64,000 nucleotides of DNA. Origin: Chelatococcus asaccharovorans. GTDB lineage: Bacteria; Pseudomonadota; Alphaproteobacteria; Rhizobiales; Beijerinckiaceae. Position numbers and translations under genes: made by a program. The notes under the pieces were generated by a model. That model had not been told where the DNA came from, searched no databases, and worked only from the letters and a program-made list of their open reading frames with translations. The stretch covers positions 1 through 64,000 of the forward strand of contig NZ_QJJK01000022.1 in NCBI RefSeq assembly GCF_003201475.1, in the 5' to 3' direction. Of the stretch, positions 44,136-59,600 are shown piece after piece. The first letter of the stretch is position 1. Every line of letters starts with the position of its first letter.

Positions 44136-44753
44136 TCAGGACAGCCGGTCTCCCATAAGATCGCCTTCCAGCGACCGGTAGAGCTGCGACCAGGCGCATT
44201 CTCCAGACATTCTGGCGGCGGCACCGGTTATATCCGCGACCTCCCGATCAACATCATCAAGGTCCAGGATGAAGGCAAACTCCGCAAGCGGGTTCTCGGA
44301 CCAAAGAACGTGCCATGCCGATGTCCTACCCCACTCGTCGTCGATCGCATCCCAATGGGAGGGTAGCCAAAAGATACCTTCCATCCTGATGCCCCACCCT
44401 TCATCCGTCCTGTCCACGATAAAAACGTCCATGACAGGTCGTGCAGCCCCAGGGGTTGCTCCTGAAGCCATGAGCCATCGCTTCACAAGCTCCAAATGAA
44501 ACCACAATGCGACATTGTCGAGCAAAGCTGGACCCTCAGCCCTGACGATCGCGGCCCTTTCTCCCGGTGAATTGCAGGGACCGATAAAATAGCGCAGCTC
44601 CTGCGCACCAACTCCAAAGATCATCTGTTTGGTGATCGACTCCGGGTACTCTGCAGCCAGGCTGTGATATTTGCAAATCAGCCTCTCCTGCAGAGTTTCT
44701 ACGGATGAATGTGAGGTGTTAAAACTAATTTTCTTATTTACATCTAGCTTCAT
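44136..44753 (-). CDS. Divergent Rep-like paralogue 2 (HUH motif lost)
   Basis: 205-residue protein of unknown function. By the shared core (DNVALWFHLELVKRWL, then ARPVMDVFIVDR, then GIRMEGIFWLP) it aligns with the three other minus-strand paralogues, but it keeps none of the His residues of motif II. It carries a longer acidic C-terminus (DLDDVDREVADITG). GGAGA six bases before the ATG at 44753 fixes the start; four earlier codons are possible. Weakest member of the family; the assignment rests on pattern, not identity. Confidence 0.45.
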   Translation of the reverse strand: MKLDVNKKISFNTSHSSVETLQERLICKYHSLAAEYPESITKQMIFGVGAQELRYFIGPCNSPGERAAIVRAEGPALLDNVALWFHLELVKRWLMASGATPGAARPVMDVFIVDRTDEGWGIRMEGIFWLPSHWDAIDDEWGRTSAWHVLWSENPLAEFAFILDLDDVDREVADITGAAARMSGECAWSQLYRSLEGDLMGDRLS

Positions 44754-45327
44754 TTTTTTCTCCAATGATTAAATCTAAAATTTGTGAATCGAATTATTCA
44801 TTCATATACATTTGTTTTACAAATGCATCGACGCAAATCGAGAATGGATAATTCGGGATAGTGCTGTCGCAGTATGGGCTGCGTCCCTGAACGGCTATGT
44901 CATGTTACCCTCTCCCTACCCTATACATCTACGCGCGGTGATATGCCTCGCACTACATTACCAAGGACAAGCTCAATGGTCGGAAAATCGCGTATGAGCA
45001 AAAACACATACTTTATTTCCGGCAATTTCCTGGGTATTTCCGCCAACCAGATTTTATTTCTTTGGTCCGGATGGACAGATTGGCTCAAATCCAGTGATCT
45101 CCGGGCAATCTTCCACGACAATCCGCCGCACGTCTCCAAAAATAATTTTCGCTTCTCATAAGGCGGAGGATTTTCCTTGGAAATAAACCCGATTTTCCGG
45201 AAATACAGCTGCTTCTTCCGGTGCGTCACGGATTTTGACGCTGGCACGGTCCCCGATGATCGTTCTGGCAATCAAAACACGACGAGCAATTTCGCCGCGC
45301 TGAGATTTTGCCGTTAGAAACTGCCAT
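44754..45327. other. Long AT-rich spacer without a recognisable gene
   Basis: About 570 bases. Minus-strand frames exist (one of 116 codons ending near 44,921) but have no ribosome-binding site or recognised motif. Several copies of words such as AAATCGG/CCGATTT occur here and into the next gene. May hold regulatory or replication signals; not decidable. Confidence 0.4.
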
Positions 45328-45633
45328 TCAAGGAGTTATCTGCACCAAAATCGGGCCGATTTTCAGACCCCGATTCCGACGGAAAAACGACGTGTTGCAC
45401 ATCGTCGTCCATATCGACATTTCCAGGCGCCGCAGGAGGACAAGCCCTCCAGCACGGCGAACCTGCACACTCAATGCCTGGATCTCGCCCGAGCGGTTGC
45501 ATTCTTCAGTCAGGCGATGGTAGTAGCCTTGCAGCTTCAATGAGAAGCGACGCTGGGCCTCTTGAGCCGAAGGCGGATCGGATGGGGTGCCTCGATCCGT
45601 AGAATTTGAATTTTTAACGATTTCTGTAGCCAT
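45328..45633 (-). CDS. Small hypothetical protein
   Basis: 101 residues: MATEIVKNSNSTDRGTP, then a helix (SAQEAQRRFSLKLQGYYHRL), then RRAGGLVLLRRLEMSIW. AGAGGA with good spacing precedes the ATG. A short gene lies ten bases upstream. No family recognised. The 3' end contains a perfect palindrome (45347-45363). Confidence 0.45.
   Translation of the reverse strand: MATEIVKNSNSTDRGTPSDPPSAQEAQRRFSLKLQGYYHRLTEECNRSGEIQALSVQVRRAGGLVLLRRLEMSIWTTMCNTSFFRRNRGLKIGPILVQITP
45347..45363. repeat. Perfect palindrome AAAATCGG-G-CCGATTTT
   Basis: Eight-base arms around one base, at the 3' end of the 45.3 kb small gene. Could be a terminator stem on either strand or a protein-binding site. Confidence 0.45.
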
Positions 45634-45643
45634 GTTTATCCTC

Positions 45644-45847
45644 TTACTGCTGGCCATTGTAATAATTAAGGTATTTTCGGCGCGTGAACGCCTGTTGTTC
45701 GACCGCTTCCCACGACAAGGAGGCAGGCTCAAGCAGATGCTTGGGATAATAATCGATCGATTTCTTGCGTTCTTTGTGTATTTTTCGACGTTTCTCTATT
45801 ACTTTTTTCATAAAAAACTCTCTCAGCATTTTTGATATTTCAATCAT
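45644..45847 (-). CDS. Small basic hypothetical protein
   Basis: 67 residues, very rich in Lys and Arg in the first half (MKKVIEKRRKIHKERKKSID). GGAGA precedes the ATG at 45847; an alternative ATG lies 12 bases upstream. Ends ten bases before the next gene. Its composition suggests nucleic-acid binding, nothing more. Confidence 0.4.
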   Translation of the reverse strand: MIEISKMLREFFMKKVIEKRRKIHKERKKSIDYYPKHLLEPASLSWEAVEQQAFTRRKYLNYYNGQQ

Positions 45848-46063
45848 CAGATTCTCCATCGGTTTGGTTTCGGCGTGATCGCTTGGCGGTGGATTGCCAG
45901 CCCACCTCCGTCAAAAACATGTGGTGATATCTCGTCAGCTCATCTGATCCTCCTGTTTCCTTGTTCTCATCGCAGAGCCGCCCGCGACCTAAGATGGGTG
46001 AGGCCACGTCGGCAGAGCCCCAAACGGAGGCTCATCGACGATGATAATCAAGCAACGCGCCAT

Positions 46064-46702
46064 TTACGGCGTGTTCGCAGCCTGCATCTGATAGGTGACG
46101 GAGCGGCCCAGCTTCCTCTTGCTCTTCCTTTTGCCTTGAGACTTGGGCCGGGGGTAGATTACGCAGGTTCGTGCGAAGTCGCATGTCGTGCGCGTGTGGT
46201 ACAGGTCTTCCAGGATTGACTGAGCCACGTCTGCAATGGCGTTGTCGGCGATGGGAAACACCTCGACTTGGCGAATTCCCCGTTTCCTACAGCCCACAGA
46301 TCCGGCTAATTTATTCACGATGCGGGAAAATCGATCGACATACCCCGCACTCACGACCCACAACGAGCGGATGTGGACATGCTGGGCACCAACATCTCTT
46401 CTGGCGAGCCAATCGGACCTGCCAGCGTCGATCACAAAGCATGCCCGAGGCCTCATATGATCAAGGGCGACAGACGACTTTCGGCCCAGAATCGCCCTGC
46501 ATACGCGATCGAAAAATGCCCCTCCGGCATCCATACGAGCGACGGACGCATCCCCGGAGCGTGGCCCTCCTTCAAAGAAGATCCTGACCTCAACGAATCG
46601 GCTGTCTTTATGGGATCCGGCATCGAAATGCGGGCCGGCGAAGAACTCTATAATATCATCTTGCGACTGATACTTATCAGAAAATTTTGTTACTGTATCC
46701 AT
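46064..46702 (-). CDS. Rep-like paralogue 3 with partial HUH motif
   Basis: 212-residue protein. The motif I strand reads FVEVRIFFE (about residues 36-44), followed by a helix FFDRVCRAILG, then RPRACFVIDAG, then HVHIRSLWVVS. When aligned to paralogue 4 by RSLWVV/HSVWAV, only the first of the two HUH histidines is kept (His110) and the second is Arg112. However, an HVH pair occurs two residues earlier. No clear YxxK. Basic C-terminus (KSQGKRKSKRKLGR) fits DNA binding. A strong promoter (TTGACA-18-TATAAT) and GAGG precede it. Confidence 0.6.
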   Translation of the reverse strand: MDTVTKFSDKYQSQDDIIEFFAGPHFDAGSHKDSRFVEVRIFFEGGPRSGDASVARMDAGGAFFDRVCRAILGRKSSVALDHMRPRACFVIDAGRSDWLARRDVGAQHVHIRSLWVVSAGYVDRFSRIVNKLAGSVGCRKRGIRQVEVFPIADNAIADVAQSILEDLYHTRTTCDFARTCVIYPRPKSQGKRKSKRKLGRSVTYQMQAANTP

Positions 46703-46721
46703 TAATAACCTCTAATATGCA

Positions 46722-46751
46722 ATTATACATCGCGCCTTCCAATATTGTCAA
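46722..46751 (-). promoter_or_regulatory. Consensus sigma-70 promoter for paralogue 3
   Basis: On the minus strand TTGACA (46751-46746), an 18-base spacer and TATAAT (46727-46722), 20 bases before the ATG at 46702. A perfect match at both boxes is rare in this genome type. The rest of the spacer to 47,030 shows nothing further. Confidence 0.75.
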
Positions 46752-47030
46752 GCCCAATTGAACTGAAATACAAATAATCGGAATTCTTTCTGAAATATGC
46801 CTCCAACAACACTCTATGGCCGATCCGCCCGAGCCCCTAGCTGATTGGCCTATACTAACTCACGAACAACCTTATTATGCTTCTTGATTCGGCATTCGGC
46901 AAATTGTAAATTGATATATTATTGTTGTTTTCTATCACTAACCTAGTCGATCGAGGAAGAATGACATCTATCGGAAGTAAATGCCCGTTCTATACCTACG
47001 AATTGCCTTCTACCATCCGATGCAACCGCC

Positions 47031-47762
47031 TTAATCAGGGTGTCTGTTCTCGGCAGATGCTACGGTCCAGATTGTATGATGGCGACGCCTCCCCCTCGGA
47101 TAGACCTCCAAGTCCTGCTCATAGCCAGGCGATTCGTTGTTATAGAAGCCAAGCTTCCTCGCGTAGGCTATGACCTTATAGAGTTCTTTTCTTTCAACAG
47201 ACCGGATGTCGATGGTCTCAACACCTCTTTCAAGGCAGTATCTGCATCTCGCAGCCTCGGGTATGTGCTTCTCAATGAGCGCCCGTTGGTCATCCCTCAC
47301 TGCCCATACAGAGTGAATGTGAATGTTCACGGGAGATACCAGACGATCGGCATATCTTGATCCCTCAGCATCAATCAAGGCCACAACCCTGGGAATAGCT
47401 TCAGATTGGCGATGGTGGTTCTTGCCTAAAGCCAATCGGCAAGTTTGGTTGTAGAGAACGCCAAATGTGTTCAGACGGTTGCGCGACAGATCTTTTACAA
47501 GGTTACGGACTGAGAACGTCACTGTCACAAAAAGGAAGCATGCGGCTGTCTCGTCTCCGTATGAAGCTGTGAGAAGATCCACAAAATGCGCGGTGAGAGC
47601 CTCATGACAGGCAGTTGATGGGTGGCGCTGTCGGAGATGTGTGATCCGTGATTTTTGTTTGCTAGGCTTGGAAAAGGATTGAAAGACGACGCCAGGGACG
47701 GCCTTAGTTCCAACGTTAGCTTGTGTTAGTGATTCACATGAATCTATAATTGATTTGTCCAT
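47031..47762 (-). CDS. HUH-type replication initiator-like protein (paralogue 4, motifs intact)
   Basis: 243-residue protein with the three hallmark motifs of rolling-circle Rep and related HUH endonucleases. Motif I is FVTVTFS (residues 78-84), motif II HIHSVW (His148 and His150), and motif III YARK (Tyr200 and Lys203, YxxK). Between I and II lie FGVLYNQTCRLALG and IPRVVALIDAEG, shared with the three degenerate relatives. Such enzymes nick one DNA strand through the Tyr, starting replication or transposition. GGAGAG seven bases before the ATG at 47762 sets the start. No helicase domain is fused. This is a motif-based call; I do not recognise a named family. Confidence 0.65.
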   Translation of the reverse strand: MDKSIIDSCESLTQANVGTKAVPGVVFQSFSKPSKQKSRITHLRQRHPSTACHEALTAHFVDLLTASYGDETAACFLFVTVTFSVRNLVKDLSRNRLNTFGVLYNQTCRLALGKNHHRQSEAIPRVVALIDAEGSRYADRLVSPVNIHIHSVWAVRDDQRALIEKHIPEAARCRYCLERGVETIDIRSVERKELYKVIAYARKLGFYNNESPGYEQDLEVYPRGRRRHHTIWTVASAENRHPD

Positions 47763-48009
47763 AAATAAACTCTCCATCTTCAAATATTTTTCGTTGTCAA
47801 AATGACATAGGTATAAATTCGCCCGCCCGACGTTACGCCGAACATGCGTGAATAAGGATGAGGTTCAAGGATCCAAATCGGAGGCTCGCCGTCGCGATGG
47901 GTACCAACAACTGGTTATTTAGGCCGGCGATCATGTCCCATGGCGCTCAGCGGCAATTTTTTTGATATTATTTTCGGGATAACGTTTAATCCCCGAACAT
48001 GAACAGTGA

Positions 48010-48438
48010 TCATCCGCGAATGATGATCTCAATCGCATCCTCGGTCACACCGAACGAAACAGCCAGCAGCTCCTTGGCTCGTCCAATCGTCAGGCAGCCT
48101 GGCCCCGGGACAATCGTGACAGCCCCCGTCGGCGATTGCTCTGGCTTCACCGAGCCGCCCCCCTCCTGACCAGTCCTCGCCAGCCCGCCCACCTTGCTCA
48201 GATCACCATGCCCGATGAACCGAGAATGGTGGCCACGGCGGCCCAGCATAAGGCGCCCATATCCCAGCTGGTCGAGAATCCGGAAGCATCTGAAGACTTC
48301 GGTTTGGGTCAGGCCCGCTCCCGCTATCGCCTGGTCGACTGAGATTTCGCGTTCCTTTTTCCCAAGGCCAGCCAACCAATCGATCATACTGCGAAACGCC
48401 AGATCGTTGTCATAATGGGCCTGGATCTCCCCGTTCAT
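48010..48438 (-). CDS. Winged-helix-like hypothetical protein
   Basis: 142 residues. Residues about 30-75 look like a winged helix: REISVDQAIAGAGLTQTEVF, RCFRILDQLGYGRLMLGRRG, HHSRFIG. A flexible Gly/Pro stretch and a small C-terminal segment (TIGRAKELLAVSFGVTEDAI) follow. GGAG before the ATG at 48438, and a promoter-like TTGACA lies 75 bases upstream. Possibly the regulator of the neighbouring genes; no family recognised. Confidence 0.55.
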   Translation of the reverse strand: MNGEIQAHYDNDLAFRSMIDWLAGLGKKEREISVDQAIAGAGLTQTEVFRCFRILDQLGYGRLMLGRRGHHSRFIGHGDLSKVGGLARTGQEGGGSVKPEQSPTGAVTIVPGPGCLTIGRAKELLAVSFGVTEDAIEIIIRG

Positions 48439-48487
48439 TGTTGGCTCCGCTGATGCACCCTGCATACCCCTCCCCTCGCATGCAGCA

Positions 48488-48516
48488 CACATAGGTTAGT
48501 AAGTTTTAATTGTCAA
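48488..48516 (-). promoter_or_regulatory. Promoter-like site for the winged-helix gene
   Basis: Minus strand TTGACA (48516-48511), 17-base spacer, TATGTG (48493-48488). Good -35, mediocre -10. Confidence 0.45.
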
Positions 48517-48736
48517 TAGCACTAGCGACTACTAGGGGGTCTTTTTCCGAAATGTCTTAGGCGATTAAGGCGCCCTTGTAGCTAACGGCGATCAGGTAGC
48601 GGATAACGGTATGTCGTCGATCTCACCTCAGCCAATTCTGATGACCAGGTTACCGCTTGGTGATACAAGAGCTCGGCGCCCCACTCGCAAGCCGTCGAAT
48701 GGCGAGCGGCAGGCCAACCACATTTTTGTGTAGCCC

Positions 48737-49315
48737 TTACAAGGCGCGATCGCGCACCCGCATGAGGGTTTGCCGGCTCACCCCATATTTCCGCGCAGCC
48801 ATCGCAATGCTCATGCCTGCGTTCAGATCGGAACGAGCCGCTTCTCTCTGTTGCAAGGTCAGAAGCGATGGCCGGCCGAGGGTCTTACCCTGCGATCTCG
48901 CGCGCTTGAGACCGGATTGGGTCCGCTCAATCAGAAGGTCGCGTTCGAATTGCGCCACGGCATTGAGAACATTCATGGTCATGGTGCCCGCGGAGCTCGT
49001 CAGATCGACACCGCCTAGCGCCAGGCAATGGACTTTCACCCCCATGGTGCTCAACTTCGATACCGTGGAACTGACGTCAATGGCATCGCGTCCCAGCCGA
49101 TCCAGTTTCGTGACGATCAACACGTCCCCCTTCTCCATGCGATCAAGGAGCCGGCTGAAGCCATCCCGTCTTGCGATAGCGACACTTCCTGAAACGGTCT
49201 CGGCAACGACCCGGTGGGCTTCTATTCGGAAACCCGCCGCTTCGATCTCAAGGATCTGGTTCTCCGTCGTCTGTCCTGTCGTTGAAACGCGTGCGTAGGC
49301 AAAAATCCGTGTCAT
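48737..49315 (-). CDS. Serine resolvase/invertase
   Basis: 192-residue small serine recombinase of the Tn3 resolvase/Hin class. N-terminal FAYARVSTTGQT with the nucleophilic Ser near residue 11, then DVLIVTKLDRLGRDAIDVSS and MTMNVLNAVAQFERDLLIER. The C-terminal HTH reads MSIAMAARKYGVSRQTLMRV. Complete. No Tn3 transposase is adjacent, so it probably serves to resolve dimers or cointegrates of the surrounding element. A res-like region lies directly upstream. Confidence 0.9.
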   Translation of the reverse strand: MTRIFAYARVSTTGQTTENQILEIEAAGFRIEAHRVVAETVSGSVAIARRDGFSRLLDRMEKGDVLIVTKLDRLGRDAIDVSSTVSKLSTMGVKVHCLALGGVDLTSSAGTMTMNVLNAVAQFERDLLIERTQSGLKRARSQGKTLGRPSLLTLQQREAARSDLNAGMSIAMAARKYGVSRQTLMRVRDRAL

Positions 49316-49440
49316 GAATGTCCTTATAGGCCGTCCGAAATATCGCGCCTGTTCAATATTGAGTCAATCTATTTTACGGACATTCACAAACGCGCCGTCC
49401 AAAAACCTTCCTTTTCGGACGGGGCTATTCTCATGCAATT
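49316..49440. promoter_or_regulatory. Probable res site of the serine resolvase
   Basis: The 125 bases before the resolvase start contain several copies of the word GTCCG in both orientations. GAATGTCC (49316-49323) faces GGACATTC (49378-49385), and CCGTCC lies near 49397 facing CGGACGGGG near 49415. Arrays of this kind upstream of a resolvase gene are the usual recombination/operator site. Confidence 0.55.
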
Positions 49441-49472
49441 GGTAACAGTTGAAGTTTTGTAAATGAGGATGG

Positions 49473-49500
49473 ATTGAACCGCTGATTGAAGCGGTTCAAT
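49473..49500. repeat. Perfect 11-base-pair hairpin
   Basis: ATTGAACCGCT-gattga-AGCGGTTCAAT, in the 490-base gap between resolvase and ATPase. No T-run, so not an obvious terminator. Confidence 0.7.
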
Positions 49501-49534
49501 GCCTGCGGCAATTAAAATTATCCGAGAATGAGTC

Positions 49535-49549
49535 GTCACCTCAGGTGAC
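49535..49549. repeat. Perfect palindrome GTCACCT-c-AGGTGAC
   Basis: Seven-base arms around one base, 35 bases after the hairpin at 49473. Looks like a dimeric protein-binding site; no neighbour with the same arms was found. Confidence 0.6.
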
Positions 49550-49659
49550 ATGAAAAAATTTGGGTTTGGACGATGAATTTTCTCGATAATTTGGATTGGC
49601 GTTGGTACCTTAATCCATGTAACATAAAGAATATTACCAGATAAATCCTTATTATCCTT

Positions 49660-49709
49660 CTCCCGTACAATATATTGCCACAGACACCCATACCGATATT
49701 CTGCGGGAG
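49660..49709 (+). repeat. 50-base hairpin repeat, copy 1
   Basis: Begins CTCCCGTACAATAT and ends ATATTCTGCGGGAG, forming a stem of 12 matched pairs out of 14 around a 22-base loop. The first 34 bases recur with one change at 54611-54644 in the same orientation. It lies 100 bases beyond the stop of the minus-strand ATPase gene, so with copy 2 it encloses the ATPase and polymerase genes. Candidate recombination (att), replication-origin or HUH-nuclease recognition site. Confidence 0.85.
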
Positions 49710-49809
49710 ATTACTCCGACCTAACGATAACGATAAAAATTACCTCTTGTAGCATTTGCCCGTCCAGCATTGAAGCTGACAAATCAATGGGATATCTGAT
49801 CGTCACCCG

Positions 49810-51030
49810 TCAGTCCCATAAACTCGATAGCGGTGTCGCGATAAGCTTCTCCCCAAAGGAAATCACGTCTGTGCCGTCGTAGAGCAAGGCTCCGACCGCG
49901 AAGCGGTCACCGCATGCGTTGGCCAGTGCGCGCAACCCCCCGAAATCGCCCGGTTTCACAGTTGCGCTCGCCTTGACCTCAATGCCCACGATCATCCCGT
50001 CGTCTTTCTCCAGCACGATGTCCACCTCTCGCCCTTCCCTGTCGCGGAAATGATAGGGCGCCAGCCTCAGGTCACTCGAGGTCATCAGCTTCAGAATCTC
50101 TGAGAAAACGAAGGTCTCTAACAGCGCTCCGAAAAGCGTCCGATCCGCCCTCACCCGATCAAAGGTCAATCCGCGGGTACTCGCCAGCAGGCCGGAATCC
50201 AGGAAGTGCACCTTGGGTGTCTTCACGATTCGCTTCAGCGCATTCGTGTACCAGGGTTGCAACATCGCAACCAGGAACACCTGTTCGAGCAGGCCAACAT
50301 ACCGTTGTCCCGTCTTGTGGCTGACATTGATGCAGCCACCTAGCTGTGAGTAATTGACCAACTGGCCGGAATGCTCCGCCAGCAACCGGACGAACCGTGG
50401 CAGTTCGGTCATTTTTCCCACATTGGCGATGTCTCGCAGATCGCGCGTCAGGATCGAGGTCAGATAGGATCGTAACCAGTCTTGCCGACGACGCTCACTC
50501 GCACGACTGATAACTTCGGGAAAGCCACCAAGCAGGACGATTTGCACCAGGTCCTCGCCCACGACGGTGTCGGATGGCCTTTGCGACCGGCCCGCAAAAA
50601 GCCGATCGAGAAACTCTGGCTTCCGACCTAAGATCTCCGCTCTGGCCAGCGGCAACATCTGGATTGTTTCCACTCGCCCCGCCAAGCTGTCGGCCACCCT
50701 TGGCAGGGTCAATACGTTTGCCGAGCCGGTGAGAAGGAACCGTCCTGGTCGGTAGTCCTCGTCGACCGACCTCTTGATCGCCAGCAGCAGATCGGGGGCA
50801 CGCTGAACTTCGTCGATGATCGCCTGATCCAATCCCCTGATGAATCCCACAGGGTCAGATTGGGCGGCTTCAAGTGCAGTTTGATCATCGAGGGTGATAT
50901 ATGTTCGATTGGCATCACCCATCTCTCTTACCAGGGTGGTTTTGCCGGCCCGGCGCGGCCCCACAATTAAGACAACTGGTGTATCCGCCAGAGCCTCCTC
51001 GGTCCGACGTTTTACAACTCGCTCAAACAT
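49810..51030 (-). CDS. AAA ATPase with DUF4143 domain
   Basis: 406-residue protein of the AAA_14/DUF4143 class. Walker A GPRRAGKTTLV, Walker B AIIDEVQRAPDLL, arginine-containing GRFLLTGSANVL. The C-terminal DUF4143 region has YSQLGGCINVSHKTGQRYVG, HFLDSGLLASTRG, and a PD-(D/E)xK-like VDIVLEKDDGMIVGIEVKAS. The family is widespread and poorly understood, often on mobile DNA. AGGGA seven bases before the ATG at 51030 sets the start. Its promoter is covered by three 22-base-spaced repeats, so it is probably tightly or self-regulated. Divergent from the polymerase gene inside the hairpin-flanked unit. Confidence 0.88.
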   Translation of the reverse strand: MFERVVKRRTEEALADTPVVLIVGPRRAGKTTLVREMGDANRTYITLDDQTALEAAQSDPVGFIRGLDQAIIDEVQRAPDLLLAIKRSVDEDYRPGRFLLTGSANVLTLPRVADSLAGRVETIQMLPLARAEILGRKPEFLDRLFAGRSQRPSDTVVGEDLVQIVLLGGFPEVISRASERRRQDWLRSYLTSILTRDLRDIANVGKMTELPRFVRLLAEHSGQLVNYSQLGGCINVSHKTGQRYVGLLEQVFLVAMLQPWYTNALKRIVKTPKVHFLDSGLLASTRGLTFDRVRADRTLFGALLETFVFSEILKLMTSSDLRLAPYHFRDREGREVDIVLEKDDGMIVGIEVKASATVKPGDFGGLRALANACGDRFAVGALLYDGTDVISFGEKLIATPLSSLWD

Positions 51031-51048
51031 GCCATTCCCTGACAATCC

Positions 51049-51106
51049 TCGGCAGATTGGAATTATCATGTCCGCCAATTGGAAGTCAATGATCCGCCTA
51101 TTGGAA
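51049..51106 (-). promoter_or_regulatory. Three direct repeats spaced 22 bases over the ATPase promoter
   Basis: On the plus strand TCGGCAGATTGGAA (51049), TCCGCCAATTGGAA (51071) and TCCGCCTATTGGAA (51093), each exactly 22 bases apart, two helical turns. On the minus strand a promoter TTGACT (51089-51084), 17 bases, ATAATT (51066-51061) is interleaved: the middle repeat fills the spacer between the boxes. Ideal geometry for cooperative repression. Confidence 0.75.
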
Positions 51107-51336
51107 CATCAAATCCCGCCGGATCGCAGGATCAAGGATGACATGGGTCAGCAAAGCCGAGAACAATGACGCCGCTGGCTCCTGCGCAAGCACATATCCT
51201 ACTCAAATCCAGCGCAAGCGCGAAGGCTTGGCCTCTAAGCATCTCAATTCCAATGTGGTCGCTTAAACCAGGATCCCGCCGCTCGAGGGCTCAGTAGAAT
51301 GAAGCCTAAGATGCCTCGTTGAGACGATGCCTACCG

Positions 51337-51600
51337 CTACGGAGTCTTGGAACGACGGTCTTGTCTGCGAGAAAAGTGAGCCAGCATCGCGCACAACCGG
51401 CGCAGGTCCATTTGGCGGATATTATGTCGGACTTTAGCCTGCGCAAGAAGTTGCCGTGCGTGTATTGCCGCCTCTCCGCTTCTCTCGAGACTCTCAATAA
51501 AGGCCTCGTGGAGCAAAAGGCGCCTCTCACCCTTTTGCACCTGCCTCTGAGCCTCGCAGAGATGGCATTCAAGGGCACGAATTATGAGAATCTGTAACAT
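51337..51600 (-). CDS. Small coiled-coil-like protein
   Basis: 87 residues: ALECHLCEAQRQVQKGERRL, LLHEAFIESLERSGEAAIHA, RQLLAQ. This matches a short helical protein often seen in Rhizobiales that starts with a L-x-x-A-E-x-x-V-x-x-GE-R-x-I pattern; a broken relative lies at 59.16 kb. GGAGG stands unusually close to the ATG at 51600. Function unknown. Confidence 0.5.
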   Translation of the reverse strand: MLQILIIRALECHLCEAQRQVQKGERRLLLHEAFIESLERSGEAAIHARQLLAQAKVRHNIRQMDLRRLCAMLAHFSRRQDRRSKTP

Positions 51601-51775
51601 CCTCCGTTACCTCTCATCGAAAGATGGCATAGTTTGGGTAACCGGTTCAGGCTTGCCTGTGGCTTACCACAGCTGCACGATCGAGCGGCTTCCCTGCGTC
51701 TGATGGCAATGGCACTTGCCGACAAGGAACCCAAGCTCCATCTTGGCCATATGAAGGCTTTGGGGGCCGGAGCAG

Positions 51776-54463
51776 ATGGGCAACGGGCTGGAAACGAATA
51801 CGACGGTCACGTTCAGGATCACACCTGAAGGTGCCAGACATTCCGTGGTAGTCGCGACAGAGCGGATCACAGAGCGTGAGCAAGGGACAAGGCCGAAGCG
51901 CGGGCTTCCTCCCCCGCCCAAACAATATCTTCTGATTGGATTCGATGCCGAATACGTCCCGCCCGCACCGCCACACTCTGGCGACGACATGGGGCCAAGC
52001 GAACCACTAAACAATGACATCCTTTCGTACCAGTTTTCCGTAAGAAAGGCCGTCGAGGGGGAAGAGCCGGGCTCTCCTATCGCGGGGATCGTCCTTCCCG
52101 ACGACGGCGGGCGCGTTGCTCTCGCTCCGTTTCTTGCCTTTGCGATCGGAACCTGGCTCGAGAGGTTTCCCGGTGAGACCGCGCCTTCGACCATCTACCT
52201 CGTGGGGCATTTCACGAGGGAGAGCATTTCGGCCTTTGCGGATTTTAGGGATTTTCAGAGATGCCTCAGCATCATCCACAATACGTTTGTGACGGTGAAC
52301 CGGACTCTTGCTATCAAGCTCACCCCAATAGATGCGCGGCAGGTCTCCTTGACCATCAACCTCCGGGATGTCCGCCTTCTGGCACCGGAAGATCATTCAT
52401 CTCTTGATCAGATCGCCAATATCCTTGGCTTGCCAAGGCCGGAGACGACATACAGACGGCCCCTGTCATCGCATCCCAACCTGAAGGACCTGATCGCTCA
52501 GGATTGGCCTCGCTATCGAGCCTGGGCTACGCAGAATGCCGACATCTGTGTGGCTTATTCCGAAAGACTGCTAAGTCGGAATAGCACGCTGGCGGGTAAG
52601 TTCACCCTGCCCGTCACCCTGACTTCCATCGGTCAGCAAATGGTTCTTGATCGTTGGAAGACGGCGGGTTTCCAACCGCTTGAACCGCTTGGCAAGGAGG
52701 AAATCCAGGAGACCAGGTTCGACAGGAGATCGGCAAGGTTCGTCACCAAAAAGACGAACGTGTACATTGACCGGGTTCATTGGGAGGTCGACTTCGTCAC
52801 TGATTCCTATCATGGGGGGCGCAACGAACAGTTCATGTTTGGACCAGCGCCTGAAGGCGAATGGCGGGATTTCGATTTGGCCTCTGCCTACACCACTGCC
52901 ATGTCATTGATCTGCCTTCCCCAGTGGCAGGATCTCCAGCCGCTCTCCAATCTTGAAGACGTCGAGCCAACAGATCTCGCCTTTGCCTGCGTCGCGTTCG
53001 AATTTCCCGAGACTGTGCGGTTTCCAACCCTGCCGGTGAGAACCGGAAACGGGCTTATCTTCCCGCGCAAGGGGCGCTCCGTCTGCTCCGCCCCCGAAAT
53101 TGCCCTTGCGCGAGAGCTTCAGGCGGAGCTCACCCTGATCAAGGGGGTAACGGTCCCAGTGGATATGGAAAAGCCCCTGTTCAAGGGCTTCATCACCGAC
53201 TGCCTCGAACACCGAAATGCCTTTGAAAAGGGGTCGCTGGACAACCTCTTCTGGAAAGAGCTCGGCAACAGCACCTATGGCAAACTTGCACAGGGGCTGA
53301 GGGAGAAGCGCGTATACGATTCCCGTTCAAACAAGATGGAGTTCATCCCCGAGGCGAAGATCACGCAACCTTTTTATGCCTCCTTCATTACCTCCTACAC
53401 CCGGGCCGTGATCGGAGAGATTCTCAACCGCCTGCCCCAAGAGGTAACCGTCTTCAGCGTGACGACCGATGGGTTTCTATGCACAGCCTCCCTCGAGGAT
53501 ATGTCCATGGCGCTCTCAGGTCCCTTGGCCGGATCATTCACGCAAGCCAGGCGAGATCTGGTTGGGAATGATGATGCCCTTGAAGTCAAACATATTATCC
53601 GGCAGCCAATCGGATGGAGAACGCGGGGCTCAGCCACCTTGAAACCCGGACACGAGCCAGAAGATATTGTACTCCAGAAGGGTGGCATCAAAGTGCCTGA
53701 GCGGTATGGCAAGCTCGAGCAGAACCTTTACATGGTCGATCTGTTTCTGAACAGGACAGCAGATCAAACGATAACGCAAAGCACGAACATTACCATCCGT
53801 CAGATGATCGCCGAAAACGTTGATTTTGGCAGGGAGGACAGTGAGAGACGTCTCGCCATGGAGTTCGACTGGAAACGCGTTCCCACCAACCATCGTGACG
53901 AGACTATCGAGTTCGAAGGGACACCTTTCAATCATCTTGCATTTGATTCCATACCACTTCAATCCAAGGACCAGTTTGAAGAACTTAGGTCTCTCTGGGC
54001 AGCATATACCAAGAATGATCCCAAAATACTGAAGACGGAAGCCGATTACTCCCGGTTTATGGACTACGTGGATGCGAAGCGTAACAACGGCCGCTATGCC
54101 TTCACAGAGGATGGGGATCTCAAAAGAATCAAGCTCGAACTATGCGCGGCCTTTGTCCGGCGGGACGGCAGTTTCGCGGAAATCAGAACGAGATCCACAT
54201 ATACGCACAAGGAATTTGCCAGAATCCTCACTAATTTTGGAATTCCCTGCAAAGATAGCGATGTTGAAAATGCAGCCAGGAACAAGAAGAAAGGAAGGCT
54301 GATGGCTTATGGTCAATCCGGAGATTCAGAACGTGTCAAAGAGGTATTGATCAAGCTGAAAAACGAATGTTTTCCGGATCTGGATATTGCTTTATTTCTC
54401 AAGGGGGATATTGGCAATATTTCTCACAACGAAAATACGGTTTCTGATAATGGGATGGTCTGA
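51776..54463 (+). CDS. Family-B DNA polymerase of the plasmid/organellar type
   Basis: 895-residue polymerase. An N-terminal 3'-5' exonuclease-like domain has Exo I as FDAEY (Asp57, Glu59). The positions expected for Exo II (VGHFTRESISAF, about 143-154) and Exo III (WATQNADI, about 250-257) look altered. The YxGG hinge is SYHGGRNE (345-348). The polymerase motifs are A DFDLASAY (Asp367), B KELGNSTYG (Lys494, Asn498, Tyr501), and C VTTDGF (Asp565, with the usual first Asp replaced by Thr). A roughly 300-residue C-terminal extension follows. The type is that of protein-primed or primer-independent polymerases of linear plasmids, pipolins and mitochondria rather than PolII. GGAG precedes the ATG. 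It probably copies the mobile element that carries it. Confidence 0.88.
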   Translation: MGNGLETNTTVTFRITPEGARHSVVVATERITEREQGTRPKRGLPPPPKQYLLIGFDAEYVPPAPPHSGDDMGPSEPLNNDILSYQFSVRKAVEGEEPGSPIAGIVLPDDGGRVALAPFLAFAIGTWLERFPGETAPSTIYLVGHFTRESISAFADFRDFQRCLSIIHNTFVTVNRTLAIKLTPIDARQVSLTINLRDVRLLAPEDHSSLDQIANILGLPRPETTYRRPLSSHPNLKDLIAQDWPRYRAWATQNADICVAYSERLLSRNSTLAGKFTLPVTLTSIGQQMVLDRWKTAGFQPLEPLGKEEIQETRFDRRSARFVTKKTNVYIDRVHWEVDFVTDSYHGGRNEQFMFGPAPEGEWRDFDLASAYTTAMSLICLPQWQDLQPLSNLEDVEPTDLAFACVAFEFPETVRFPTLPVRTGNGLIFPRKGRSVCSAPEIALARELQAELTLIKGVTVPVDMEKPLFKGFITDCLEHRNAFEKGSLDNLFWKELGNSTYGKLAQGLREKRVYDSRSNKMEFIPEAKITQPFYASFITSYTRAVIGEILNRLPQEVTVFSVTTDGFLCTASLEDMSMALSGPLAGSFTQARRDLVGNDDALEVKHIIRQPIGWRTRGSATLKPGHEPEDIVLQKGGIKVPERYGKLEQNLYMVDLFLNRTADQTITQSTNITIRQMIAENVDFGREDSERRLAMEFDWKRVPTNHRDETIEFEGTPFNHLAFDSIPLQSKDQFEELRSLWAAYTKNDPKILKTEADYSRFMDYVDAKRNNGRYAFTEDGDLKRIKLELCAAFVRRDGSFAEIRTRSTYTHKEFARILTNFGIPCKDSDVENAARNKKKGRLMAYGQSGDSERVKEVLIKLKNECFPDLDIALFLKGDIGNISHNENTVSDNGMV

Positions 54464-54610
54464 TAGAGTCTGGTATCTTTTTTGCACCCCCATCATAATC
54501 GATAATTGACCTTGCAATGCACATCAGAAAGGGGAGCGATCAGAACGAAGAAAAAAGTATCTAGTAAGACTAGTTAGGATCACATGTATAGCATAACAAT
54601 ATACGCCCCC

Positions 54611-54661
54611 CTCCCGTACAATATATTGCCAAAGACACCCATACGGCTATTGTACGGGTAG
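54611..54661 (+). repeat. 50-base hairpin repeat, copy 2
   Basis: Starts with the same 34 bases as copy 1 (one mismatch) and carries a perfect ten-base-pair stem, CCCGTACAAT (54613-54622) with ATTGTACGGG (54649-54658). It lies about 150 bases beyond the polymerase stop and is in direct orientation to copy 1, 4951 bases away. The remaining sequence between 54,464 and 54,863 shows no gene. Confidence 0.85.
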
Positions 54662-54863
54662 TGTGTCTATGAATACGTTCTTCACCTCGTCAGCCTCAAC
54701 CTTATGCCCAACTGGCAGGGGTGCCCACTCTCTCGCAGACTTTTAGCACAAGGGGTTTCGCCACTCCCAAGCTGAAGATCCGGCGGCTCTCTGAGCCACT
54801 TTTATGGAATGGCCCGCCCCTCACCGTCCTGCCTTATCCTGGGGAGGCAAACGAGGGAGAGCG

Positions 54864-55916
54864 ATGATGACGAAGCCTACCGTTGCGGTTCTGGGTATCG
54901 ATCTGGGCAAGAACAGTTGCAGTGTCGCCGGTCTCGATGACACGGGTCGTGTCGTTCTGCGACGTCGTCTGAGCCGGGAAGGCGTTGTTCGGCTCACGGC
55001 CAGCATGCCGACCTGCGTCATGGCGATGGAAGCGTGCTGCGGCGCTCATCATCTTGGGCGCGTGTTGCGCGAGCAGGGGCACGAGATCAGGTTGATGTCG
55101 CCGGAATATATCCAGCCCTACGTCAAGGCACAGAAGAACGACGAGCGGGATGCCGAAGCGATCGCCGAAGCCGCAACCCGTCCGACGATGCGTTTTGTAG
55201 AGCTGAAGAGCGAGGCCCAGCTCGAGATGCAGATCCTGCATCGGGCACGGACACGTCTGGTGACGGAGAGGACGGCGTTGATCAATCAATTACGCGCGTT
55301 GTTGCTGGAGCGCGGCATCATCGTCGCCAAGGGGCGCTCTCGCCTGGAGCAGCATCTTGCCTCAATGCTGGACGAGGGGGCGCCGGCGCCGATGGCCCTG
55401 AGTCCGCGCACCCTGCTGCTGATCGAGGACATGCGCCTGGAATGGCGCGACCTCGATCGTCGCATTGCCGCGCTCTCGGCAGAGTTCCAGGTGCGGGCAC
55501 GTGAAGATCAGCTGGCAAGCCGACTTGCGACGATTCCCGGCTTCGGAGCGCTCAACGCCACGGCCCTCGTCGCGGCGATCGGCTCTGCCGAGACGTTCCA
55601 TCGCGGCAGAGACCTCGCGGCCTGGCTCGGTCTCGTGCCGCGACAGGTGACGACTGGCGGCAAGCCCCGCCTTCTCGGCATCACCAAGCGGGGGAATGTC
55701 TATCTTCGTACCTTGCTGATCCACGGCGCGCGAGCTGCCTTGCCGTCGCTTGTAGATAGCCCCACCACGATGGGAGAGTGGCTACGCGGGCTGTCAGCAC
55801 GGGCGCATAAAAACAAGGTCATCGTCGCCCTGGCCGGCAAGCTGGCACGGATCGCCTGGGCGGTTCTGCGGTCGGGGCAAGGCTACCGGAAGGGCGACAT
55901 GCCCGTAATAGCCTAA
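54864..55916 (+). CDS. IS110-family (IS1111-like) transposase, intact
   Basis: 350-residue transposase. The N-terminal DEDD domain (VLGIDLGKNSCSVAGLDDTG, MAMEACCGAHHLGRVLREQG, KNDERDAEAIAEAATRPTMR) and the C-terminal Transposase_20 domain (LATIPGFGALNATALVAAIG, AAWLGLVPRQVTTGGKPRLL, KRGNVYLRTLLIHGARA) are complete. The ATG at 54864 follows GAGGGAGAG. It lies 200 bases right of hairpin copy 2. IS110 elements integrate without inverted terminal repeats, and IS1111 members often choose hairpin or att-like targets, so the position next to the hairpin may not be random. Element ends not determined. Confidence 0.92.
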   Translation: MMTKPTVAVLGIDLGKNSCSVAGLDDTGRVVLRRRLSREGVVRLTASMPTCVMAMEACCGAHHLGRVLREQGHEIRLMSPEYIQPYVKAQKNDERDAEAIAEAATRPTMRFVELKSEAQLEMQILHRARTRLVTERTALINQLRALLLERGIIVAKGRSRLEQHLASMLDEGAPAPMALSPRTLLLIEDMRLEWRDLDRRIAALSAEFQVRAREDQLASRLATIPGFGALNATALVAAIGSAETFHRGRDLAAWLGLVPRQVTTGGKPRLLGITKRGNVYLRTLLIHGARAALPSLVDSPTTMGEWLRGLSARAHKNKVIVALAGKLARIAWAVLRSGQGYRKGDMPVIA

Positions 55917-56452
55917 TGTGATCGACCGGCCGCGCAACGCCCCCGCGCCCCGGTCAAGCATGTCTGCTGGTGGTGGATGCGAGATGGCCTGACGGTTGAT
56001 CCGGCGCTTTGAAATCCTGGTTCAAAAAATGGCGCATCAACGCCGGGACTTTTATGAGGACCAGAGCGCGCGGAACTCCATCTTGGCCGAGGCCCGACCT
56101 CGAGACCGGATACGTTGGCGCAGACCGGTCAGATTGCCTAGCAAAAACCGCTTGCCGACGGGGCGGGCCATACGTTTTTGAACGATGCGAGGACATGAAA
56201 AACCACACAATTGAGGCCACGGATTGGTAATGCTATCAAGCGGGAGGGCCTACCGGAACTCGTTAGGTTTTTTGACGTTAAAAAGGGCTTGCTGGCTCTG
56301 GCTGCAAAACATTTGAAGAATAACAAGCGCGATGATTCGAAAGTTGGCTAACACGGGCAATGCGAAGCACGGGAACGGGTAAGCTCAAGGCGGCCTTGGC
56401 CGCGGTAGTTCCCCAAATCGTAGCGCAATAGGCAGCGACCTGAGCGAGACGA
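55917..56452. other. Spacer, probably the 3' end of the IS110 element plus unassigned sequence
   Basis: About 530 bases. The first part is probably the non-coding right end of the IS. A minus-strand frame near 56,278-56,514 overlaps the end of the GIY-YIG gene in another frame and has no clear family; I do not call it. Confidence 0.4.
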
Positions 56453-57055
56453 TCATGCATCGGACGAAGCGTCTGCGCACCACAAAGGTCGCAAGGCTCG
56501 CTCCAGGTGAGCATTAACTACGATTTGATCAGCTTCTTCCACCCGACCGCACCTGATAGCATCCACGCACAGGATCCCATGAACGCCCTGTGCCCAGGTA
56601 TCGAGATGCAGAGCTTCCCTCTGCGCATGTGAATGGGTCAGATGCTCGAACAACCGCTCCTCAAGGTTGGCTGTGTGGCCAACATACAAGGTGCTTCCTT
56701 CGACAGGCAATGGCGCGAGCTGCGGATAGCGATAGCCAGGATGGCGATGGCTCACATAATGATCGAGGATGTGGGCCAGCGACGCGCGCCTGACCGAAAT
56801 CCAGAATACGCCCGGTCCGGCCCCAAAGATACGAGAGAGTCGATCCTTGATCTGCCAATCTGCAACACCGACCGTGGCGAAGCCAATGGACCAGGCCCGA
56901 TGGTCAAGGTTCCTCCATGCCCCAAGGATCGGCAGGATGGTTGAATCAACGGTTCCTGTGTTCAAATTCGTTCCTGATTGTCCTTCGATGATGACTTCTT
57001 GCTGATCACGAATTGCCCAGCCGGGTCGCCAGGTCAAAGGCCGTAATGGGCACAC
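56453..57055 (-). CDS. GIY-YIG nuclease-domain protein
   Basis: 200-residue protein whose C-terminal half has a GIY-YIG-like core: STLYVGHTANLEERLFEHLT (Tyr and the catalytic Arg region), preceded by YPQLAPLPVEG. The N-terminal half (ILGAWRNLDHRAWSIGFATV) is of unknown type. Related single-domain proteins are common near mobile DNA. The start overlaps the preceding gene by 22 bases and is not certain. Last gene of a four-gene minus-strand set starting at 58.4 kb. Confidence 0.68.
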   Translation of the reverse strand: MCPLRPLTWRPGWAIRDQQEVIIEGQSGTNLNTGTVDSTILPILGAWRNLDHRAWSIGFATVGVADWQIKDRLSRIFGAGPGVFWISVRRASLAHILDHYVSHRHPGYRYPQLAPLPVEGSTLYVGHTANLEERLFEHLTHSHAQREALHLDTWAQGVHGILCVDAIRCGRVEEADQIVVNAHLERALRPLWCADASSDA

Positions 57056-57366
57056 AGACGTTCGACCTCAGCCTGCCTGCCCTGCCGTACCATGGCACGC
57101 GTCCAATCGAGCGTTGCCAGGCGGTCCGTGGTTCCTGTGACAGTGTAGGGGGAAAACCCGAGTTCCGTCCGGCGAGCATCGACGCGTGCGATAGAGTCGG
57201 CGCTCATCGGATTGATGCCTCGTCTCCGCAGTGCAGCATCCACAGTGTCGTCGTAAATCTCGTCATACTCTTCAGGAAACAGCCGGGCATGGAAGGCCCG
57301 AACTTGCCTCTCCAGAGTTTCGTCTGCGCATCCTCTCGCTGACTGGGCGACAGCCCCGCCCGCCAT
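57034..57366 (-). CDS. Hypothetical protein
   Basis: 110 residues with a helical, acidic middle: ETLERQVRAFHARLFPEEYD, then EIYDDTVDAALRRRGINPMS, and DWTRAMVRQGRQAEVERLCA. The ATG at 57366 is chosen because it follows the previous gene by 32 bases; an earlier start would overlap that gene. Not recognised. Confidence 0.5.
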   Translation of the reverse strand: MAGGAVAQSARGCADETLERQVRAFHARLFPEEYDEIYDDTVDAALRRRGINPMSADSIARVDARRTELGFSPYTVTGTTDRLATLDWTRAMVRQGRQAEVERLCAHYGL

Positions 57367-57398
57367 TCCCCGACCTGCGTGACGCTGCCTTGACACCT

Positions 57399-58010
57399 TT
57401 ACCGCCGACACCGGACCCAATCCTGACCGCCTTTGACGGATCTGTAGCAAAGCCCGCGCTTCTTGAGCTCATCAGCCGCCTTCGCGCGGCGACCGCAAGC
57501 CTTGTCGGTCGCAGGGTCATCGCCAGAGCCTCCTCGGCACGCATCGTTCTGATCCGCCCAATAGTCGATCAGGGCCTTGTTTGCCATTCCCCGCAAGGGC
57601 GGCGCCGCGGGCGCCTTCTGCATAGTGGTCGCAAGGGGGATACACCACTGATAGTCCTCGCCCTCGAGGCTGAACCGCTCCCGCGTCGGGACATCGAGGA
57701 TGAAGGACTGCGTGAAGGTCTCATCAATCTCCCGGCACGTGGTCTCGACGTGATAGCGATGCGGGGGCCGGACCATTTTTATCATGGCGACCACACAGGC
57801 AGTCTCTGGTCCTTGAAACTGTTTTCCACCCTTGTCGACTTCATAGGGCGCAAAGTCGAGCTCGCCCCGTCTGAATTCCGCGCATCGTTGTGGTGTCTCA
57901 GTGTAGACCCCATCGCGCAGCGGTACCCGGTAATCGGCAATGACGGGATGGACAAACACCGTGAAAACGATCAAGGGCAGCGCAGCCCCGGCAACCCATC
58001 GGATCCCCAT
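57399..58010 (-). CDS. Secreted protein of unknown function
   Basis: 203 residues with a signal peptide (WVAGAALPLIVFTVFVHPVI, then AD). Conserved cysteines occur (QRCAEFRRGE, ETACVVAM, TTCREID). The C-terminal segment IDYWADQNDACRGGSGDD, then KACGRRAKAADELKKRGLCY, is a small Cys-containing module I have seen in many rhizobial periplasmic proteins. The ATG at 58010 starts just before the signal peptide, ten bases after the zinc-ribbon gene. Confidence 0.68.
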   Translation of the reverse strand: MGIRWVAGAALPLIVFTVFVHPVIADYRVPLRDGVYTETPQRCAEFRRGELDFAPYEVDKGGKQFQGPETACVVAMIKMVRPPHRYHVETTCREIDETFTQSFILDVPTRERFSLEGEDYQWCIPLATTMQKAPAAPPLRGMANKALIDYWADQNDACRGGSGDDPATDKACGRRAKAADELKKRGLCYRSVKGGQDWVRCRR

Positions 58011-58020
58011 GGCGGCGGTC

Positions 58021-58368
58021 TCAAAAATAGTAGCGTTTGTTACGGAACACATACAGCAGGAGATAGACCGGCAGCCATAACCCACCGGTCAAGATCGACA
58101 GGATGATGTGCAACCAGTGCGGGAACCGCTTGATGGGACCGGCGTAACCGGCGACGGCTGAGGCCGCCGCCGAGGCCCCGCCTCCCCCCGCATTCATGAA
58201 GACCTGCGAGGTGCCCTGCTGCTGCCTCTTCAACATCTCGAGTTCGCGCATCTGGGGGTCAAGAATCTCCCCGCAGTGCCTGCACTTTTTAGATTTCGCA
58301 TTGATCGTTTCCGCGCAGTACGGACAAGCGATCATTGCGGCTGGTGTTTCGTCCAAATGGTCCCCCAT
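58021..58368 (-). CDS. Zinc-ribbon membrane protein
   Basis: 115 residues. An N-terminal zinc ribbon has CPYCAETINAKSKKCRHCGE (two CxxC pairs), then a Gly/Ala-rich linker, then one or two membrane helices near the C-terminus (WLHIILSILTGGLWLPVYLL). This layout occurs in small phage- and plasmid-encoded membrane proteins. First gene of the minus-strand set, divergent from the XRE regulator. Confidence 0.75.
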   Translation of the reverse strand: MGDHLDETPAAMIACPYCAETINAKSKKCRHCGEILDPQMRELEMLKRQQQGTSQVFMNAGGGGASAAASAVAGYAGPIKRFPHWLHIILSILTGGLWLPVYLLLYVFRNKRYYF

Positions 58369-58511
58369 AGTCGGCGAGGGCTTAGCGGCTATCCGCAAAC
58401 CCGTCCCATTATCTAGCTTTTTGCAATTTATGATATAATCAGACGACTTTCAACCAAAAACTCGTACCAAAAGATATTAACGCCGAGACATTCTCATCTC
58501 ATTGGAGGAGA

Positions 58512-58868
58512 ATGACGCCGCATCAGAAAGCGCTCAAATCGGCTTTGGAGTTTCGGGTTCGGTTGAAGGCCGCTCGAAAGAATGTGGGTCTCACGCAAGA
58601 AGAGCTCGTGGCCATAGCCGAATGCTCAGCAGTCACCTTGAGCAAGCTTGAAACGGGCGTTAACAGGCCGACCTACGAGATCCTCGTATCCTTAGCTTAT
58701 GCTCTTGACGTCTCGCCAAACGCATTGATCGGGTGGGACAGTGACCCGCCATCCCAGACTGAAGCAGCAAAAAAAGAACAGCTGACTCGTCTTATGTTGC
58801 TAGCCGAGCACCTGTCCGATGAGTGGATCGAGCAGCTTGTCTCCATTGCCGAGAAGGCCTCTCGCTAG
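58512..58868 (+). CDS. XRE-family transcriptional regulator
   Basis: 118 residues. A Cro/CI-type HTH sits at about residues 15-70: VRLKAARKNVGLTQEELVAI, AECSAVTLSKLETGVNRPTY, EILVSLAYALDVSPNALIGW. A short C-terminal helix pair (LTRLMLLAEHLSDEWIEQLV) is for dimerisation or ligand binding. GGAGGA precedes the ATG. Likely controls the divergent four-gene set. Confidence 0.87.
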   Translation: MTPHQKALKSALEFRVRLKAARKNVGLTQEELVAIAECSAVTLSKLETGVNRPTYEILVSLAYALDVSPNALIGWDSDPPSQTEAAKKEQLTRLMLLAEHLSDEWIEQLVSIAEKASR

Positions 58869-59159
58869 TTCGCTCTTACGCTGCAATACCGAGCTTCAAA
58901 GTGTAGTTCGTCCCAAACCTTGAACTCGGCGCTTCGTTTGCGGGCCTTAAAAAATTATGCTTGGTTCTATGGGTTCACGCTCCCCCGTGAGCAGCCTCCC
59001 GATTTGCCGCTTCCCCGGCCGCCGCAAGGCAAAAATCGGGAGGCATTTTTCGAGCCTGCACATCAGGTCGGGTTTCCGTCAGCGAGACAGCGAACTTGGA
59101 CACTCGGAACTTCTTCGGTATGACGCCGCTACGGAAAGCGCTTGCGGCGGGGAGATTGC

Positions 59160-59409
59160 ATGGACCGGACAACCATTCGCGAACAACTCGCATTGGCTGA
59201 GCGCCATATCCGCGACGGCGAACACCGTCTGGCACGGTTGCATGAGTCAGTCTGCGCTTCGCAGCTCGCGCAGCACAGATGCTAACAGCCTTCGGGCACA
59301 GCTCGACCATGAAGAGCGCCAACAAGGCATGCGGACGATGGATCGCGGTCGGCTGATCGCCATGCTGGCTTGGTTCGAGAAGTCGGCGCTTGAACGGAAA
59401 GCACGATAA
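59160..59409 (+). pseudogene. Small helical protein gene with a frameshift
   Basis: ATG with GGGGAG upstream: MDRTTIREQLALAERHIRDG, then EHRLARLHESVCA, then the frame stops. The next frame carries on with STDANSLRAQLDHEERQQGM and RTMDRGRLIAML. One base lost near 59,260 would restore an about 83-residue protein related to the small protein at 51.3 kb. Confidence 0.6.
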
Positions 59410-59579
59410 TGGCACCAGAAACCAGGACGTAGTCCGGCCCGATTTTGAAGAAAGTCGCACTCACCCGGTCGCGGCAGATCAATACCCGGTGATTCGAGGC
59501 AGGATTTCCATTGGCCGATTTCTGTATGTCTCGTTCTGCGACTAATGTGACGGTTTTTATCTTGCACTGTGATATATAC

Positions 59580-59598: not shown

Positions 59599-59600
59599 AT

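Follow-up and report, generated by a model that had tools for sequence, protein, structure and literature searches.

The window analysed here, 64,000 nucleotides of Chelatococcus asaccharovorans DNA, belongs to a contig of 75,025 bases that carries repA, repB and repC and is therefore a RepABC plasmid. Two direct hairpins (49660-54661) enclose a DUF4143/AAA_14 ATPase gene, an 87-aa ORF and a gene for a family B DNA polymerase (Table 1). The earlier note on this DNA had listed the same contents, and smaller overlapping ORFs are the only addition to them.

Table 1. Coordinates of the features at the polymerase locus and in its surroundings.
Feature	Position	Strand	Remarks
HUH paralogue, degenerate motif (FIS)	42858-43640	-	sequence motif
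HUH paralogue, degenerate motif (HIR)	46064-46702	-	sequence motif
HUH-type protein, candidate nickase	47031-47783	-	HIH and YARK; homologues in pipolin loci L036, L037, L047, L099
160-aa ORF	48010-48492	-	last 40 aa match an ORF of a Devosia piPolB locus (L038)
Small serine recombinase, resolvase/invertase type	48737-49315	-	Pfam
Resolvase-site-like inverted repeats	49320-49440		by eye; end of the near-identical block of two G015 replicons
Left hairpin, second direct copy	49659-49710	+	intact loop; 2 mismatches in the stem; 2.05 kb upstream of polymerase frame
DUF4143/AAA_14 ATPase	49810-51078	-	Pfam; cargo-like
87-aa ORF	51337-51600	-	G015 protein identical; no family match
piPolB, primer-independent-type family B DNA polymerase	51776-54463	+	895 aa; motif C TTDG, RTRG motif
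Right hairpin, piPolB-associated stem-loop	54610-54661	+	CCCATA loop; 147 nt past polymerase stop
Zinc-ribbon-like protein	58021-58398	-	under Pfam cut-off; 57-64% to pipolin loci L099, L047, L042
HTH regulator	58512-58868	+	44% to pipolin loci L036, L037

The polymerase gives a Pfam match under the cut-off (DNA_pol_B_2, E 0.007) and is related by tblastn to plasmid polymerases, including that of S. epidermidis pSE-12228-03. The K/R-TRG motif is a feature of piPolBs; its broader form K/R-T/S-R-G is found in 8 of 8 aligned sequences and reads RTRG in the window protein. Motif C has a single Asp (SVTTDG) that is invariant in the same alignment size, 8 of 8, and a passage of PMC7544198 describes motif C of piPolB without its first Asp. 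Scanning a species-genome collection with the polymerase alignment yielded 64 loci. The polymerase tree has 67 rows, 9 of the 76 loci with a polymerase match having been left out (L019, a duplicate of L039; L100; and loci with an open frame below 550 aa). The window polymerase and the E. coli-type polymerase fall in one grouping of 57 rows with support 100. The annotated E. coli copy has integrases and a tRNA-Leu nearby, the setting that passages of PMC7385651 describe for E. coli pipolins. By its motifs, and because it groups with the E. coli-type pipolin polymerase, the window protein is identified from sequence as a piPolB, so that the nearest idea of the earlier note, pipolins, was well chosen. 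Compared with its counterpart in the congener G015 the gene is, on the codon measure (dN/dS 0.15, no stops), under purifying selection. The AlphaFold model of the protein is poor (pLDDT 58).

Over 48 nt (49660-49707 and 54611-54658) the two hairpins have the same orientation, 90% identity and a spacing of 4951 nt, and 33 of the first 34 bases agree (97%), as had been noticed on first inspection. Only these ~48 nt are shared, the flanks being unrelated. Both copies can indeed form stems: that of the right hairpin is a perfect 11 bp, that of the left one, read by eye, has 14 positions with 2 mismatches (1 mismatch in the G015 equivalent). The 18-base hairpin core, allowing up to 3 mismatches, occurs at two places only in the window (0.01 expected) and at two places only in the whole 7.25-Mb genome, both being the window hairpins. 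A repeat scattered through intergenic regions, which the earlier note had named as the finding that would undo its proposal, is thereby ruled out. Two exact 18-mer matches in IMG/VR lie in unrelated phages that have nothing else in common with the element and were set aside. A further pairing (AGACAC/GTGTCT) is possible downstream of the right hairpin, at ~54664.

The DUF4143 gene has a dN/dS of 0.16 and no stops against G015. It matches 93 plasmid records, mostly from Rhizobium and Agrobacterium (~69-75% identity among the 30 listed), genera in which the polymerase query has no plasmid match. A part as core partner of the polymerase was rejected, as there is no homologue at E<=1e-4 in L035-L100 and the gene is common on rhizobial plasmids; from this distribution the ATPase looks like cargo.

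A 157.6-kb plasmid contig of G015 (C3) is colinear with window positions 42175-54708 at 95.9% identity, and the colinearity runs through both hairpins, which are thus not terminal in the element. The one other copy in the genus lies on G015 contig C5. Its left part is 99.9% identical to the C3 block and ends just past the resolvase gene; there follow the C-terminal 117 residues of a polymerase that has diverged (72% identity) and, after it, one hairpin. By this layout the C5 copy is a deletion remnant and no empty site. The block of 99.9% identity on C3 and C5 corresponds to 42175-49426 (7.3 kb, from a WGR gene to the resolvase) and ends in the resolvase-site-like repeats, a pattern that would fit transfer or exchange of the block by the resolvase. 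The C5 deletion junction is at the edge of another perfect hairpin (49472-49500), unrelated to the pair. Just past the right hairpin, 24 nt (54685-54708) have two matches in G015 that flank ~676 nt absent from the window, a difference that probably arose by deletion between short repeats in the window.

Outside the 5-kb unit several genes are common to other pipolin loci: those of the HUH-type protein (L036, L037, L047, L099), the end of the 160-aa ORF (L038) and the genes at 58021-58398 (L042, L047, L099) and 58512-58868 (L036, L037). Because they recur, the element extends beyond the hairpin-bounded unit, which is, on gene content, the inner part of a pipolin-derived region of roughly 42-60 kb on the RepABC plasmid. 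An IS110-type transposase gene, absent from G015, interrupts the region. A resolvase is present, the host plasmid is of RepABC type, and no relaxase was found among the ORFs tested. Close to the region, 61370-62884 (minus strand) codes for a reverse transcriptase fused to a TIR domain, resembling retron-TIR or Abi-type defence proteins. L036 and L047 have a large serine recombinase near piPolB. L036 and L041 have a truncated ChlI/comM-like gene near the pipolin locus, separated from piPolB in L036 by the large serine recombinase; this gene is a possible pipolin integration site in Rhizobiales.

The earlier note took the interval for a site-specifically integrated circular replicon with the hairpins as its attachment sites. 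The limits of the shared sequence, ~48 nt between unrelated flanks, agree with such sites, and passages of PMC7385651 report att-like direct repeats for E. coli pipolins. Against it, however, two plasmids are colinear through both hairpins, no empty site joining both flanks was found in the 4 genomes of the genus, and no integrase is found among the 17 ORFs of 42-60 kb put to Pfam. In L036 and L041 the apparent attachment site is the truncated ChlI/comM-like gene and not the hairpin. The majority of relatives carry one hairpin only, and the direct pairs of L099 and L047 have spacings of no more than 104 and 219 nt, so that the hairpins do not generally mark element ends. An integrated circle is therefore very improbable.

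The hairpin recurs beside related polymerases. A scan for inverted repeats past the polymerase stop detected, in L036, L037, L041 and L099, a long-loop hairpin whose loop has the same letters, and this hairpin was recognised by eye also in L038, L042 and L047. A covariance model of 10 copies (R1), run on 79 loci (1.38 Mb, E<=5), gave 9 independent sites beyond training sites, near-copies and reverse-strand echoes, L039 and L019 being one genome and counted once. Seven are beside piPolB (the second copy of L047, L043, L040, L044, L052, L039 and L045) and two elsewhere (L087, L089). Six of the nine lie within 300 nt of a polymerase end, a zone holding 3.4% of the bases (P 1.3e-7), and seven within 450 nt (5.2% of bases, P 3e-8), the second L047 copy being at 412 nt. 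A model of 18 copies (R2), run on 1.36 Mb at E<=5, returned 31 matches, all at known sites except two new close ones, in L044 (stem only) and L039 (an inverted copy 253 nt from the first); both models match their own training copies by construction, and the on-site matches of R2 are thus not independent.

The arms of the hairpin covary and its loop is invariant. In a structure-blind alignment of 14 copies from outside the window the stem positions pair in 81.9% of cells, versus 35-42% when slid, and 10 of 13 stem pairs have changes on both sides, counts that are biased towards the stem because hairpin shape or R1 had served to select the copies. Window-type copies were excluded here for the additional pair in their stem. 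Four of five pairing measures were reached in 0 of 500 shuffles and the fifth in 1 of 500; RNAalifold, with no structure supplied, recovered 8 of the stem pairs. The loop CCCATA is identical in all 18 rows of a wider alignment and in 5 of 7 further sites inspected (the second of L039, two of G063, and those of G024 and G226). G703 has CCCACA, and the second L044 match (2096-2144) is a stem that was not counted as a copy because it has no CCCATA loop.

The copies following the polymerase gene lie 72-412 nt past its stop or overlap it (L038, L052); those preceding it are up to ~250 nt upstream of the frame (L039, L040, L043, L044, L045), the left copies of the window and G015 being 2.05 kb upstream. 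Either strand is used. At least one copy is found within about 200 nt of the polymerase ORF in each of the 15 hairpin loci. The hairpin accompanies 15 of the 16 polymerases of one clade (SH-aLRT 99) of the 67-row tree; the sixteenth, L035, has its contig cut inside the polymerase gene. Beside the other 51 polymerases no hairpin is found within the flanking sequence present, and six Methylobacterium/Aureimonas-type pipolins have only short-loop, terminator-like hairpins and no equivalent long-loop one. A blastn search with the window hairpin detected no relatives, which the structural search did find. The window hairpins represent a conserved stem-loop that accompanies a single piPolB clade. 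As to polymerase homologues lacking the hairpin, which the earlier note held would tell against it, they exist among the more distant relatives only, the nearer ones having it.

Among 397 genomes of the family the hairpin has a match in only 6 (10 sites, window genome counted), and piPolB is found in 4 of these 6 versus 6 of the other 391. Among 385 genomes of the class, a draw that overlaps in part with the first, there is a match in 2, again with the window genome counted. Both scans together gave 11 distinct sites, at 1-3 copies per positive genome. Some genomes speak against a strict tie to piPolB. G024, G226 and G703 have the hairpin and no piPolB match even by profile; in G024 and G226 the contig ends within ~160 nt of it, and further genes of pipolin type are present on the G024 contig. 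Neither of the two hairpins of G063 adjoins the polymerase fragments found there; they adjoin a small gene resembling, by eye, the gene next to the L036 hairpin.

An intergenic element adjoining a single gene could be a transcriptional or RNA element of the polymerase gene (a terminator, an attenuator or antisense control), and T-rich runs do end the copies of L043, L044 and L045. However, a copy may follow or precede the gene, depending on the locus, and may lie on either strand, which is at odds with such a function, as are the window copies, which no T run follows, and the invariance of the loop and not of the stem alone. Rfam has no match at E<=1 in window positions 42000-60000, so a known RNA family was discarded, and a part in expression of the polymerase gene is judged quite unlikely. 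The hairpin might instead be the preferred start or template site of piPolB, acting without a nickase, its loop offering the single-stranded template for a self-made primer. It follows the piPolB clade more closely than it follows the HUH gene discussed below, and its nearness to the polymerase ORF in 15 loci also fits. Yet the hairpins of G024, G226 and G703 come with no piPolB match and the 51 other polymerases of the tree have no such hairpin; a start site of piPolB alone is rather unlikely.

The pipolin-derived region codes for an HUH-type protein and two paralogues. Relatives of the former in L036, L037, L047 and L099 have the motifs HIHS-x-W and YxxK, and a second type with L-H-x-H and YxxK is found in L039, L045 and L052 and, truncated by the end of the contig, in L044. 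The L039 and L052 proteins pass the Pfam cut-off for REP_ORF2-G2P and that of L045 just misses it. With profiles built from the hairpin loci themselves, a protein with HxH and YxxK was located in 10 of these 15 loci, at a distance of 1.6-10 kb from the hairpin; it was not found in 22.5 kb of L038 nor in 9-19 kb of L040-L043, three of these four loci beginning at a contig end close to the polymerase. Pfam has no match for the window protein, one unrelated row being under threshold. Its AlphaFold model is weak (mean pLDDT 60), and the best VIA-align match of this model is 2x3g over 112 of 116 residues, with a Z of 8.5 that is barely above background. Entry 2x3g is SIRV1 ORF119, an HUH Rep. Lower rows include AAV Rep, parvovirus NS1 and pMV158 RepB domains; Rep domains, judged by title except for 2x3g, make up 11 of the 50 rows listed, mixed with unrelated folds. 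Foldseek gave no match for the model at E<=0.001, its top rows being unrelated amidases. In G703, where no piPolB was found, the hairpin is 219 nt from an HUH-like ORF recognised by motif only (HSH, YGLK; profile E 0.5).

The two degenerate paralogues keep ~98% identity between the plasmids of the two species. A different, larger HUH-like protein is encoded near piPolB in Aureimonas (L048, 12943-14337) and Methylobacterium (L058, 14031-14987), proteins of this type giving one weak Rep_1 match under the cut-off; HUH partners may therefore be wider in pipolins.

Hairpins in direct orientation at both ends, recognised by HUH enzymes, are known from IS200/IS605 and REP/RAYT, and with HUH genes near the pair might be the ends of an HUH transposon (IS200/IS605-like or ISCR-like) mobilising the polymerase unit. 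Among relatives, however, a lone copy or a close pair is the usual arrangement, the copy number in positive genomes is 1-3, and no IS200-type transposase is found among the unit ORFs put to Pfam, which makes such a transposon extremely improbable.

The reading favoured here, with odds slightly better than even, is that the hairpins are an origin-type site of the replication or mobility module of one pipolin clade, probably nicked by an HUH protein, the nickase step being less sure than the origin-type role. It is suggested by the invariant loop, the covarying arms, the adjoining replication gene and the HUH protein in many of the same elements. HUH nick sites typically show an invariant loop between covarying arms. 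The side remark of the earlier note, that the hairpin could be an origin or an HUH target, thus gains support from clade conservation, covariation and the HUH proteins.

By cruciform extrusion, or by folding of single-stranded DNA, the arms would expose the CCCATA loop, which the pipolin-encoded HUH protein (47031-47783) would nick. The primer-independent polymerase could then copy the exposed strand, starting de novo on a single-stranded template. With two direct copies, nicking of one and termination at its partner might release a 4.95-kb circle carrying the polymerase. The hairpin, its conservation, its covarying arms, its link to one piPolB clade and the HUH-motif proteins are observed; nicking, choice of strand, initiation and circle release are inferred. 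Such a circle would be a by-product at most, because the same clade has single and closely paired copies, and piPolB need not replicate the replicon, RepABC being already there.

Several findings count against an HUH-nicked origin. Two of the three HUH paralogues of the window have lost the motif, the HUH gene is 1.6-10 kb off the hairpin and was not found in 5 of 15 loci, hairpins occur without a piPolB match (G024, G226, G703), and HUH relatives occur without hairpin or polymerase, three of five family genomes with this HUH family having a match to neither. A more complete proposal, namely that this pipolin clade is copied by a new two-enzyme system in which a small HUH nickase opens the hairpin origin, piPolB synthesises and the two direct origins found here can bud off a 4.95-kb polymerase-bearing circle, is more doubtful, a possibility put forward tentatively.

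What is new here is the hairpin as a conserved element of one piPolB clade. Passages of PMC9710591 call the biological role of piPolB unclear, and the pipolin literature, in the passages covered, names no origin. A word search found neither "hairpin" nor "HUH" in the main texts of PMC7385651 and PMC9710591; where passages of the pipolin and piPolB literature use these words they denote other things, and an earlier description may exist in print. Instead of bounding an integrated circle, the hairpin may be the point where copying of these pipolins starts. As a short DNA element with covarying arms that keeps to one polymerase clade, it is a concrete candidate site for HUH cutting and for the start of piPolB, and if the two-enzyme system holds true, pipolins gain a defined origin.

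The window element resembles pipolins in its polymerase, which shares the single-Asp motif C (TTDG) and K/R-T/S-RG with that of S. epidermidis pSE-12228-03 and the 57-row grouping (support 100) with the E. coli-type enzyme. The resolvase nearby recalls plasmidic pipolins, for which passages of PMC9710591 report one. It differs from pipolins by its location on a RepABC plasmid, by having no integrase among the 17 ORFs and no att repeats observed, and by hairpins that are not terminal. Compared with IS200/IS605 and REP/RAYT, the window-type hairpin is mostly single-copy and tied to one piPolB clade. The HUH-type proteins are like HUH rolling-circle initiators (REP_ORF2-G2P; SIRV1 ORF119, AAV Rep, pMV158 RepB) in having HxH and YxxK, two relatives from the clade score above the REP_ORF2-G2P cut-off, and the hairpin, with its loop and arms, is like HUH nick sites. 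They are unlike these initiators in that the window protein has no Pfam match, the hairpin is by the polymerase gene and not by the HUH gene, and cleavage is putative. Unlike pipolins as the main texts of PMC7385651 and PMC9710591 describe them, the window element has both a conserved hairpin and HUH-type proteins; if the HUH protein cuts and piPolB starts at this hairpin, rolling-circle initiators and self-priming polymerases would be joined in one type of replicon.
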